A stretch of DNA of 54,930 nt from Myxococcales bacterium FL481 (GTDB lineage: Bacteria; Myxococcota_A; Polyangia; Nannocystales; Nannocystaceae): NCBI GenBank assembly GCA_006508105.1, contig QKPP01000016.1:20341-75270 (forward strand), read 5' to 3'. The first letter of the stretch is position 1. Each line of letters starts with the position of its first letter. Positions 23,787 through 27,535 of this stretch are shown here, one piece after another. Under the pieces are notes generated by a model. That model was given only the letters and a program-made list of their open reading frames with translations, had not been told where the DNA came from and did no database searches. A program made the position numbers and the translations under genes.

Positions 23787-24734
23787 CTAGGGCAGCCACT
23801 CCAAGCCTCGATGGGCGGCCTCGTGGCCTCGCTCCAGCCGTGCGTAGATCTCGCCGGAGATGGCGCCGGCGGAGATCCAGCCCAGCGCACGACTGTCACA
23901 GCACGCGCCATCGGGCCGGTTGTCCGCGAGCAGAAGGTAGGCCTCCGCTGTGACCTGGACCGGGGTTCCGTCGGCGGGCAAATCCATCCCAACCCACGTG
24001 GTGCCTCGCGAGTCCGGGCGCACCGGGTAGCGCAGATCGTCGAGCCACTCGTAGGCAGGAGCCGTCGGGGTCGCGGCCGATGGCCCGCCCGTCGGAGTCG
24101 CGGGCGCGGCGTCGGTGCCTCCGCGGGCGACGGCGGTCAGCGGCAAGCGAGCCGGCATCGCGTCTTTTTGGCGCAGCGGCTGGCCGTTGATGGCGAGTCC
24201 CAGCGCGGCTCCAGGCACGCGAAAGGCGACCACATCGCCCGGGACCGCCAACACGCGAGCCACTCGGAGCGGGGGACGGGCGCCCGCGGGGGCCGACGCC
24301 GCCGACTGCAGCTCTTGCCAGTTGCGCTCTAGCTTCGCCCGATCGACCACGGCCGTGTTCGGCAAGGGCGGGCCCGAAGCCGACGCGGCCGTGGCTGACT
24401 CCGTCGAGGCGGCCGCTTCACCCGGGAGCGGCACGCGAGGCGGGCGGGCCTCTTCACCGCCGGCCAGCATCACCGTCGGCAAAGGTTCGTACACCACCAC
24501 GTCGCCGCGTGCGATTTGACCGGTGTGGCGGACGAGCAAGACCAAGTCGCCGTCGCGGATGGTCGGCTCCATCCCGGCTCCCTCCACGGTGACGACGGTC
24601 ACGATCGTCGCCCGTAGCAACACCAGGACGCCCACGAGACCGATCACGAGCCACGCCAGTCGGTTGGCCAAGGATCGCTCGTCGCTCGCGCGCGGGGCAT
24701 CCTCTTCTTCATAGCCGCGGTATCGACTTGGCAT
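23787..24734 (-). CDS. Signal peptidase I-like protein lacking the catalytic Ser and Lys
   Basis: A 315-residue relative of type I signal peptidase (S26). One membrane segment (residues 26-50) leads into the usual box B, but VEGAGMEPTIRDGD has Gly54 where the nucleophile Ser should be. Box D, usually KRVxGxPGD, reads VARVLAVPGD with Ala159 in the place of the general-base Lys. Box E (DNRPDGACCDSRALGWI) is intact, so the fold is kept. A Pro/Ala/Ser-rich insertion (residues 95-155) and another (200-228) enlarge the periplasmic domain. The ATG at 24734 lies inside the end of thiE, so the two are coupled. It is probably not an active peptidase; it may bind signal peptides or regulate a true LepB encoded elsewhere. 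Confidence 0.85.
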   Translation of the reverse strand: MPSRYRGYEEEDAPRASDERSLANRLAWLVIGLVGVLVLLRATIVTVVTVEGAGMEPTIRDGDLVLLVRHTGQIARGDVVVYEPLPTVMLAGGEEARPPRVPLPGEAAASTESATAASASGPPLPNTAVVDRAKLERNWQELQSAASAPAGARPPLRVARVLAVPGDVVAFRVPGAALGLAINGQPLRQKDAMPARLPLTAVARGGTDAAPATPTGGPSAATPTAPAYEWLDDLRYPVRPDSRGTTWVGMDLPADGTPVQVTAEAYLLLADNRPDGACCDSRALGWISAGAISGEIYARLERGHEAAHRGLEWLP

Positions 24735-25503
24735 CGGCGTGTCGCGGCGCCGCGGCGAGAGCTTGGTGCAGCGCGGCCACATCTTCACGCACCTGGCCCA
24801 CGTCGCCAAAGAACGCGCGGATTCCCGCTAGGCCATACGCGCCGGCGTTCAGACAAGCGCTGGCGTTGGTGGCATCCACCCCGCCCAGGGCGAACACCTG
24901 ACCCGCATGCCGCAGCGCGGTCCATCGGCGCAGCGTGGACAAGCCAATCGCGGCCTTGGTGCGACCCGCTTGGTCCGTGCGCGGGGGGAAGACCGGCGCG
25001 AGGCACGTGTAATCGGCCCCGTGGGGTGAGTCGAACGGCGGCGCGCCGTGGACGGAGCGGCCGATGAGTGCGCCGTCGTCACCGCCGAGCGCCTCTCGAG
25101 CTCGGTGGATCTCCGCGGGACTGGGATCACCACGCAGCTGGACGCCGCACGCGGGGGAGCGAGCGAGGGGCTCGGCGGCGAGCGTCACCTCCCTCGCACT
25201 GGCGCTGGCGAGAAGCCACACCCCGGCTTCGGTGCACGCCCCCACAAACCGCCGCCAGGTCGCGTCTTGGTCGATTCGCGACAACGCGGCGGCGAGCGAC
25301 TCGTCCGGTCGCCGCAGCAGCGCGGCCATCTGCGACGCCGGCACTCCCGTGCGAAGCCAGGCGTCGACGTGTCTCGCGGTCGGGTCCTGCGCGGGCGGGG
25401 TGATGGCAAGCAGACGAAAGCGAACTCGGTCGCCGCGGACCGAGGCGGTCCCAGGCTCGGCCGGTCCGCGGTGGGTCGTGCCCTCCTCGCGTTCGGAACT
25501 CAT
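24709..25503 (-). CDS. ThiE/TenI-like thiamine-phosphate synthase family protein (divergent)
   Basis: A 264-residue TIM-barrel protein of the thiamine-phosphate synthase/TenI family. The second half is clear: ACGVQLRGD (for GVHLGQ), LIGRSVHG, ADYTCLAPVFPPRT and the phosphate-binding FALGGVDATNASACLNAGA. The first half is weak: the usual QLREK after strand 2 and the DD metal site are not recognisable. It may therefore be a TenI-type aromatising thiazole tautomerase rather than a full synthase, or a divergent synthase. Position in the thi cluster supports a thiamin role. It lies 116 bases after thiG and overlaps the signal-peptidase-like gene by 26 bases. Confidence 0.85.
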   Translation of the reverse strand: MSSEREEGTTHRGPAEPGTASVRGDRVRFRLLAITPPAQDPTARHVDAWLRTGVPASQMAALLRRPDESLAAALSRIDQDATWRRFVGACTEAGVWLLASASAREVTLAAEPLARSPACGVQLRGDPSPAEIHRAREALGGDDGALIGRSVHGAPPFDSPHGADYTCLAPVFPPRTDQAGRTKAAIGLSTLRRWTALRHAGQVFALGGVDATNASACLNAGAYGLAGIRAFFGDVGQVREDVAALHQALAAAPRHADAKSIPRL

Positions 25504-25619: not shown

Positions 25620-26396
25620 CTACCCGATCATCCCCGAGCTCGGGCTGGAAGGTTGAGCGAGTTCACGTTTGGGAATGCGCCCCGCCAGCAACGCCTTGCG
25701 TCCCGCGATCACGCCATCACGCATCGCTGCCGCCATCAGCACGGGGTTTTCTGCGCGAGCGATTGCGGTGTTCATCAACACAGCGGTACAGCCGAGTTCC
25801 ATCGCCACCGCCGCGTCGCTGGCTGTGCCCACGCCCGCATCGACGATCACGGGGACGTCGGCCTGTTCGATGATGATCTGCAGGTTGTGCGGGTTTCGGA
25901 TGCCGAGACCACTGCCGATCGGTGCGGCCAAGGGCATCACCGCCGCGCATCCCATCTCTTCGAGTTTGCGACACACGATCGGGTCGTCCGTGCAGTACGG
26001 CAACACCTGAAAGCCTTCGTCCAACAGGACGCGAGCCGCTTTGAGGGTTTCCTCGTTGTCCGGCAACAAGGTCCGTGCGTCGCCGATCACCTCGAGTTTG
26101 ACCAGATCCGCGATACCGAGCTCCCGCGCCAGCCGAAGCGTACGGACGGCCTCGTCGGCGGTGTAACAGCCCGCGGTGTTGGGCAACAAGATGTAGCGCT
26201 CGCGGTCGATTTGGCTCAATAGGTTGTCCGCGGCCTTGAGATCGACGCGTCGCAGCGCCACCGTGACGATCTCCGCGCCAGAGGCCTCCATGCATGCGAC
26301 GGTCTCGGCCGCGTCTTTGTACTTCCCGGAGCCAATGATCAATCGCGAAGCGAATGAGAGGCCCGCGAGGGTCCAGGTGTCTTGTTCTTCGCTCAT
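25620..26396 (-). CDS. thiG: Thiazole synthase
   Basis: Builds the thiazole phosphate moiety of thiamin from deoxyxylulose phosphate, dehydroglycine and ThiS thiocarboxylate. At 258 residues it is a normal ThiG. Marks are [10 protein letters not shown] at the start, [22 protein letters not shown], the Schiff-base lysine in [10 protein letters not shown], and [21 protein letters not shown]. The ATG at 26396 overlaps the thiS stop by one base (TGATG), a classic coupled pair; longer in-frame starts would run over thiS. Confidence 0.98.
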
Positions 26397-26599
26397 CAAC
26401 CACCTCCGACGAAGGTCACAATCTCGAGGATGTCGCCGTCGGCGAGCCGCGTGGCGCCGTAGTCCTTGCGCGGCAGGATCTCGCGATTGTACTCGACGGC
26501 GATCTGTCGGGCGTCTAGCCCCAATTTGGCGACAAGAGTGGCGACCGTCGCCTCGGCGTCGGCTTCGTGGCTCTCGCCGTTGACCATCAAGGTCGGCAC
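26396..26599 (-). CDS. thiS: Sulfur carrier protein ThiS
   Basis: A 67-residue ubiquitin-like protein whose C-terminal Gly-Gly (TFVGGG) is adenylated and thiocarboxylated to donate sulfur to ThiG. VNGE near the N-terminus and [12 protein letters not shown] in the middle are typical. The first codon is GTG; an ATG four codons later would also give a normal ThiS. It heads thiS-thiG-thiE. No ThiF, ThiH/ThiO or ThiC is in the window, so activation and glycine or tyrosine oxidation must come from genes elsewhere. No TPP riboswitch is recognisable upstream. Confidence 0.97.
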
Positions 26600-26809
26600 C
26601 GGACGGAGGGTAACGCAATCCCTCTGCGCGCGTAGCCGCGCGACGCCGGCCCCGCGGCGTTGGCATTTCCCCGCAGTGTGTCTGTTTTGCCACAGTCACC
26701 AACCGTCGGCGCCGACCGCAGTCTCAGGGATACAACTGAAAAATCAGCGGCTTACGCTCACGTATCCGCGACTGGGCCGCGTGGCACATCCTGTGCTGCT
26801 CCTCACCCC

Positions 26810-27535
26810 ATGCTTGCCCATACCAACCGACGACCTGCGATCCCCCTTGACCGCCTGGACCCCGTGCCGATGCTCGGTTGCGTCGAGCCGTTCGTCGTGA
26901 GCCCGTCGGCGGCCTTGGAACGACTCGCCGCCTCCGCGACGCGGGTCAGCGGGCTCGCGGGAGAGGTGCTACTTCGGGCGGGCGATCGACCGGAGGCGGC
27001 CTTCGTGGTGCTCCGAGGGCGGGTGAACTTGCTTCGCGGCGGCCACCGGGGGCGCGAACTGATCTTGGCCTGCTTGGGCGCCGGCGACCTATTCGGCGAA
27101 GCCGGCGTGATGCCCGAAGGCGTGGCTTCCACCACCGCCGTTGCCGCGGGAACGGTGGAGTTGTGCCGCTTACCGATCGCCGATCTCCGACGTCACCTCG
27201 AGGAGATTCCCGCGACGAGCGTACGGATGCTCGGTCTGCTTCAGCGACGGTTGGCGGACATCGAGGGCGTGGCCAGCGGCCTGGCCTTGTGCGACGTCGA
27301 ACAACGTCTGCGTCGCACACTCTCGGTCTTGGCCCGCCGGCAGGGTCGACGGCTGCAAGAGGGCGCCAACTGGGTGTTGGCCCCGGTACCCACTCAAACC
27401 GAACTCGCACGCATGGTCGGGTCCTGCCGCGAGACGGTCTCGCGAACACTGACCGCTATGGCACGCGACGGGTTGGTCAGCACGGTCGGTCGTAAGATGT
27501 TTCTCGCGCAGGCGCTCGTCGAATCGCACGCCTAA
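26810..27535 (+). CDS. Crp/Fnr-family transcriptional regulator
   Basis: A DNA-binding regulator of about 241 residues with an N-terminal cyclic-nucleotide-binding-type beta roll (AFVVLRGRVNLLRGG, CLGAGDLFGEAG) and a C-terminal winged helix-turn-helix (PTQTELARMVGSCRETVSRTL). The Fnr cysteine cluster is absent, so it is not an oxygen-sensing Fnr; the arginine of the cAMP pocket is not evident either. Several starts are possible: ATG at 26810 is used, and ATG at 26870 would remove 20 residues. It diverges from thiS and stands alone, so its targets cannot be read from context. Confidence 0.93.
   Translation: MLAHTNRRPAIPLDRLDPVPMLGCVEPFVVSPSAALERLAASATRVSGLAGEVLLRAGDRPEAAFVVLRGRVNLLRGGHRGRELILACLGAGDLFGEAGVMPEGVASTTAVAAGTVELCRLPIADLRRHLEEIPATSVRMLGLLQRRLADIEGVASGLALCDVEQRLRRTLSVLARRQGRRLQEGANWVLAPVPTQTELARMVGSCRETVSRTLTAMARDGLVSTVGRKMFLAQALVESHA

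Follow-up and report, generated by a model that had tools for sequence, protein, structure and literature searches.

The S26-like gene and the thiamine locus

The window analyzed here, a stretch of 54,930 nucleotides from Myxococcales bacterium FL481 (contig QKPP01000016.1), includes the gene order ykuD, crp (divergent), thiS, thiG, thiE-like, S26-like and tRNA-Thr. The S26-like gene (23787..24734, minus strand) was defined by its ORF, by Pfam and NCBIfam matches, by ortholog search and by alignment. It encodes a signal peptidase I-like protein of 315 aa from which the catalytic Ser-Lys dyad is missing. A reading made earlier from the sequence only had described an intact frame overlapping thiE, and this was borne out: the ORF is unbroken, begins with ATG and shares 26 nt, in a different frame, with the adjacent thiE-like gene. 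The predicted protein matches Pfam PF10502 (Peptidase_S26) with E=2.8e-14 and NCBIfam TIGR02227 (signal peptidase I) with 62.4 bits against a cut-off of 47, and its homology to the S26 family is far beyond chance. The TIGR02227 equivalog accepts these dyad-less proteins above its cut-off, and in public genomes they are therefore probably annotated as active enzymes. A LexA/UmuD-like S24 identity was also considered and rejected, as the Pfam S24 score is below that for S26 and matches to the LexA fold are weak, with E above 1.

A single N-terminal transmembrane helix is predicted at residues 19-44 (24603..24680, minus strand), followed by the exported domain, and a hydrophobic stretch is found at this position in all orthologs. 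The membrane anchor and box E (residues 271-286), both said in the sequence-only reading to be kept, are present. An AlphaFold2 model built from the ortholog alignment (pLDDT 69.7, falling below 50 in the box E loop) consists of one helix, residues 19-44, and then a beta-rich domain. Its best Foldseek matches in the PDB are E. coli signal peptidase I and Streptococcus pyogenes SipA, the latter as third match.

The gene overlapping the S26-like gene is a divergent ThiE/TenI-like gene (24709..25503, minus strand; Pfam TMP-TENI, 40.5 bits). It is preceded by thiG, encoding thiazole synthase (25620..26399, minus strand; Pfam ThiG, E=7e-110), and by an ORF for a thiS-like sulfur carrier of 67 aa with a GG end (26396..26599, minus strand), homologs of which lie upstream of thiG at other loci. 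A Crp/Fnr-type regulator identified by Pfam (26660..27535, plus strand) is divergent from the thi genes, and its homologs occupy the same place in family f68 (family numbers are labels internal to this analysis). The canonical ThiE of this genome (157 bits) is encoded on a different contig, C294; together with the weak score of the linked gene, this suggests that the linked gene may be TenI-like and not the main TMP synthase. The coupling to thiE proposed earlier therefore holds for the overlap itself, but the partner is a divergent paralog.

Linkage of thiG, the thiE-like gene and the S26-like gene is seen at 23 of the 25 Nannocystales loci. The two exceptions are L015, with no thi genes nearby, and L024, which lies on a short contig in an odd arrangement. 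The conserved neighbors of the S26-like gene are thiS, thiG, the thiE-like gene, crp and ykuD. The link to the thi genes is real as synteny, and the position within the thi gene run suggests that the S26-like gene may be co-expressed with thiamine synthesis.

The former active site

Residue counts given here refer to an alignment of 24 full-length Nannocystales orthologs. When aligned to canonical LepB, Gly54 (codon 24573..24575, minus strand) falls on the column of the nucleophilic Ser and Ala159 (codon 24258..24260, minus strand) on that of the general-base Lys, exactly the two replacements first proposed. Position 54 is Gly in all 24 orthologs, and position 159 is Gly in 17 and Ala in 7. 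Active S26A enzymes have a Ser nucleophile in box B and a Lys base in box D; neither residue occurs at its position in any of the 24, nor does any of them have His at position 159, as in the S26B (ER/archaeal Ser-His) type. A sequencing error or local variant can be set aside because the 24 orthologs agree. Nor does another Ser-Lys pair lie nearby: there is no invariant Lys, and the only one that comes close to invariance, K190, belongs to the loop following box D. S281, the only Ser that is invariant, was rejected as a substitute nucleophile, being the structural Ser of the box E DSR. Neither another dyad nor a dyad-bearing ortholog, either of which would tell against a replaced active site, was found among the orthologs. 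Loss of Ser-Lys catalysis in this protein is well supported.

Box B comprises residues 46-57 (TVVTVEGAGMEP; 24564..24599, minus strand), of which G52, G54, M55 and P57 are invariant. Residue 53, immediately before the nucleophile position, is Asp in 21 of the 24 orthologs, Ala here and Asn in two others. With Glu51 and Ala53, this genome departs slightly from most orthologs, which have His51 and Asp53. Box D (residues 157-167, RVARVLAVPGD; 24234..24266, minus strand) opens with Arg157, which is invariant in the orthologs. Box E (DNRPDGACCDSRALGW; 23877..23924, minus strand) has a loop two residues longer than that of LepB. The glycine that contacts Lys in active enzymes (E. coli Gly272) is replaced by Ala270 here, and the same position is Ala in 22 orthologs and Ser in 2.

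Within box E lies a vicinal pair, Cys278-Cys279 (23898..23903, minus strand), which is invariant in the alignment (24/24). These are the sole cysteines of the 315-aa protein and the only cysteines of the exported domain in nearly all orthologs; additional ones occur almost exclusively in or near the membrane helix, with a single exception at residue 101 of L009. The Nannocystales pair, which lies by the old active site, probably forms a disulfide or a redox-sensitive clasp. The alignment has 32 invariant columns in total, and boxes B, D and E, with only about 39 of the 315 residues, contain 19 of these. That these boxes are the most conserved part of the protein despite loss of the dyad points to a site that is still in use, not to an idle scaffold.

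Orthologs and selection in the Nannocystales

Orthologs were identified in 25 of the 29 genomes of the order, the present one included, with named records from Nannocystis, Plesiocystis pacifica, Enhygromyxa salina and Paraliomyxa miuraensis. The four genomes lacking an ortholog also had no match to the linked thiE-like gene; in G026 the contig stops 263 bases past thiG, so that absence there is likely an assembly gap. In a profile search of 379 genomes of the phylum, matches with E<=1e-12 were confined to the same family. Orthologs with an intact dyad were sought elsewhere in the phylum, and the weak matches examined in the class proved to be ordinary LepB or other dyad-less paralogs. The Nannocystales S26-like proteins form one clade, with support of 0.999 and 0.996 in two trees.

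Close ortholog pairs gave dN/dS values of 0.12-0.41, indicating purifying selection on the S26-like gene; pairs with higher values were too diverged for the simple method applied. The substitutions are conserved order-wide and, in other dyad-less forms, through much of the class, and the earlier judgment that this is not simple decay stands.

Dyad-less S26 genes in other families

Six or more further families of the class (f3, f5, f7, f9, f14 and f68) also have dyad-less S26 genes linked to thi genes. Several single-helix copies are placed either directly downstream of thiS-thiG-thiE-like or after thiG and a gap of one gene length. The residues at the Ser and Lys positions of the thi-linked copies differ between families: Gly/Gly or Gly/Ala in f3, with one copy Ser/Gly; Ala/Gly in f9; Gly/Gly in f14; Glu/Arg in f68; and Asp/Arg in f7 and f5. 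The Lys is absent from all 39 thi-linked copies, 23 from Nannocystales and 16 from elsewhere, and Ser is present in a single one of them (G213). The Cys pair is absent from the thi-linked relatives in other families. Across 80 thiG loci sampled phylum-wide, f3 and f5 of this class were the only families with an S26 neighbor, and there was none in f2 or in other classes, a count from which a weak partial match upstream of thiG (L268) was excluded. Deep nodes joining the thi-linked groups have support of 0.76-0.79. A single ancestral loss of the dyad is favored by the synteny, but a tree with nodes of this strength does not prove it.

Most of the low-scoring S26 genes sampled in other Myxococcota lack one or both dyad residues, but relatives outside the Nannocystales were found with a dyad-less query or through a low S26 score, so that dyad-less proteins are over-represented in such counts; frequencies can be read only from the Nannocystales set and, less rigorously, from the thi-linked set. 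Three further groups were observed. A second S26 family lacking the full dyad (L147-L149, L153-L158, L163, L173, L176 and L180), from other Myxococcota, has an N-terminal multi-helix segment ahead of the S26-like domain, in most members with a PGLG-like motif; no thi genes were present in the flanks checked. Some S26 paralogs have lost a single dyad residue: Ser is replaced by Glu and Lys kept in L090 (G397), and Ser is kept with Lys replaced by Gly in L091 (G180), L160, L161, L305 and L306 (f2). A dyad-less group in f36 (L150, L151, L162 and L172) has Arg for Lys, Thr or another residue at the Ser position and CDNRR instead of GDNR in box E, again with no thi genes in the flanks checked.

LepB and other S26 genes

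The genome encodes four S26 genes: the thi-linked gene, LepB and two others. A true lepB, whose presence elsewhere in the genome had been posed as a question, lies beside lepA, and its motifs (SGSM, KRV and GDNRNESMDS) show an intact dyad. A high-scoring LepB was found in each Nannocystales relative examined with completeness of at least 87%, and the other LepB-type proteins of the order whose motifs were read keep the dyad. With the dyad missing from all orthologs of a conserved gene and an active LepB in the same genome, the proposal of a non-catalytic protein that is not a product of decay has held up.

The housekeeping LepB genes of Nannocystales (L001 76-2568; L077-L087) are very long frames, which at the loci read span about 560-1170 aa and include a big C-terminal extension, and the Arg of the box E DSR is mostly replaced (DSL, DSV or DST). 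Another Nannocystales locus (L088 43-723, G011) encodes an S26-like domain behind a lipobox (LTLAGC), with Gly for Ser and Ser for Lys, apparently a lipid-anchored pseudo-signal-peptidase.

Possible functions of the S26-like protein

Given the established S26 mechanism, a protein with neither the Ser nor the Lys cannot act as a signal peptidase, and SipA provides a direct case (PMC4049620). Loss of the dyad combined with the SipA precedent leads us to favor a role in binding or as an adaptor, on the periplasmic side of the inner membrane. We consider it reasonably probable that the gene encodes an ancient, thi-locus-linked pseudo-signal-peptidase, a protein anchored in the inner membrane whose role is to bind and not to cut. 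The protein would be seated in the inner membrane with its domain towards the periplasm, and would not cleave by the S26 mechanism. Its remodeled cleft, in which small residues replace Ser and Lys alongside the invariant Arg157, M55-x-P57 and DNR...CCDSR, may hold a peptide tail or another ligand, and its role could be that of an adaptor, chaperone or regulator, as for SipA in pilus assembly. The signal-peptide-binding or regulatory role put forward in the sequence-only reading would also be plausible. Both the ligand and the thiamine connection are matters that we infer. A broader proposal, which we think fairly unlikely, is that a class-wide Gram-negative family of pseudo-signal-peptidases was inherited with the thi locus, its site rebuilt as a redox-gated (Cys-Cys) site for a peptide or a thiamine-related ligand, and that its members serve as periplasmic receptors or adaptors.

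The genomic neighborhood raises the possibility that the cleft is no longer a peptide site and instead binds a thiamine-linked small molecule, or that the protein anchors a complex of thiamine enzymes at the membrane. Seven or more families of the class have the gene immediately downstream of thiS-thiG-thiE-like, usually one gene after thiG, and small residues at both catalytic positions would be expected to open a pocket. Thiamine synthesis is cytoplasmic, however, while the domain is predicted to lie outside; the thi genes of other classes and of f2 lack this neighbor, and bacterial synteny can last through co-transcription alone. We regard this proposal as unlikely. A regulatory subunit of the active LepB, either a substrate-sorting partner or a decoy that holds signal peptides uncut, would share its fold and compartment with the enzyme, and the general presence of LepB in the sufficiently complete relatives, with the dyad kept where motifs were read, is consistent with such a partnership. 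It is unlikely nonetheless, as the gene shows no genetic linkage to lepB, which adjoins lepA in this genome, and the Arg157 that is invariant in the cleft strand is not characteristic of LepB.

Alternatively, the protein might still be a hydrolase whose active site is new and combines, for instance, Cys278 or Cys279 with Asp53 or another group. In the alignment the invariant Cys pair occupies the place in box E that is in contact with the catalytic Lys in active enzymes (Ser278 in E. coli LepB), and Asp53 is present in most orthologs. Yet Asp53 is replaced in this genome and in two others, there is no invariant His or Lys to act as a general base, adjacent cysteines with no others in the exported part should oxidize in the periplasm, and the thi-linked relatives of other families do without the pair. 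SipA further shows that a dyad-less S26 protein can be truly inactive (PMC4049620), and we judge a new hydrolase to be very unlikely. That the gene is a decaying, functionless lepB duplicate carried in the operon is hardly credible, for although neither catalytic residue is left and the phylum has many dyad-less S26 paralogs, the gene is intact in all genomes with the locus, shows no frameshifts, has dN/dS well below 1 between close pairs, and retains invariant residues at the old active site in a monophyletic clade (support 0.996-0.999).

On the reading preferred here, that of a binding protein, the retention of an S26-like gene beside vitamin B1 genes across a group of soil and marine bacteria probably reflects a non-cutting job. 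What is new is that nearly all Nannocystales, and other families of the class as well, carry such a gene immediately after thiS-thiG-thiE-like. These genes constitute a natural Gram-negative series that retains the fold and the gene neighborhood but carries several different replacements of the dyad, and the series makes the question of what the S26 fold is for when it does not cut testable by comparison.

Comparison with known systems

A few Gram-positives are known to have signal peptidases without catalytic activity, one of which is essential for pilus assembly. The literature library consulted held nothing relevant on Myxococcota pseudo-signal-peptidases or on links between thi genes and signal peptidases, which is not proof of absence. 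Dyad-less signal peptidase I homologs are already known in Gram-positives, and no report of a thi-linked one in Gram-negatives was found in that library. The earlier statement that known signal peptidases use Ser-Lys or Ser-His and that neither is seen here is correct for the 315-aa protein, but the situation is not unprecedented, SipA and SpsA being dyad-less already.

The S26-like protein shares with LepB (S26A) boxes B, D and E, the membrane anchor, and matches to PF10502 and TIGR02227 above cut-off. The LepB comparison set keeps the Ser, the Lys and the box E glycine, whereas the S26-like protein lacks all three.

The closest precedents are the Gram-positive SipA and SpsA. SpsA of Staphylococcus aureus is an inactive and dispensable S26 paralog, reviewed as a partner of spsB in Staphylococcus, and resembles the present protein in occurring beside an active enzyme; it differs in that the part of the source drawn on here describes neither thi linkage nor a Cys pair (PMC12445088). 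SipA of S. pyogenes (PDB 4n31) likewise has the S26 fold, a single membrane anchor and replacements at both catalytic residues, with no detectable peptidase activity; it keeps its cleft and is essential for pilus polymerization (PMC4049620). The substitutions are not the same, since the Ser and Lys of the dyad are replaced by Asp and Gly, respectively, in SipA but by Gly and by Gly or Ala in the proteins described here. The Nannocystales proteins further differ in the Asp that precedes the nucleophile position in most orthologs and in the Cys-Cys pair of box E. No sortase or pilin genes of the SipA kind are among the conserved neighbors here: SipA belongs to a Gram-positive pilus gene cluster, and the S26-like protein to a thiamine cluster of Gram-negatives.
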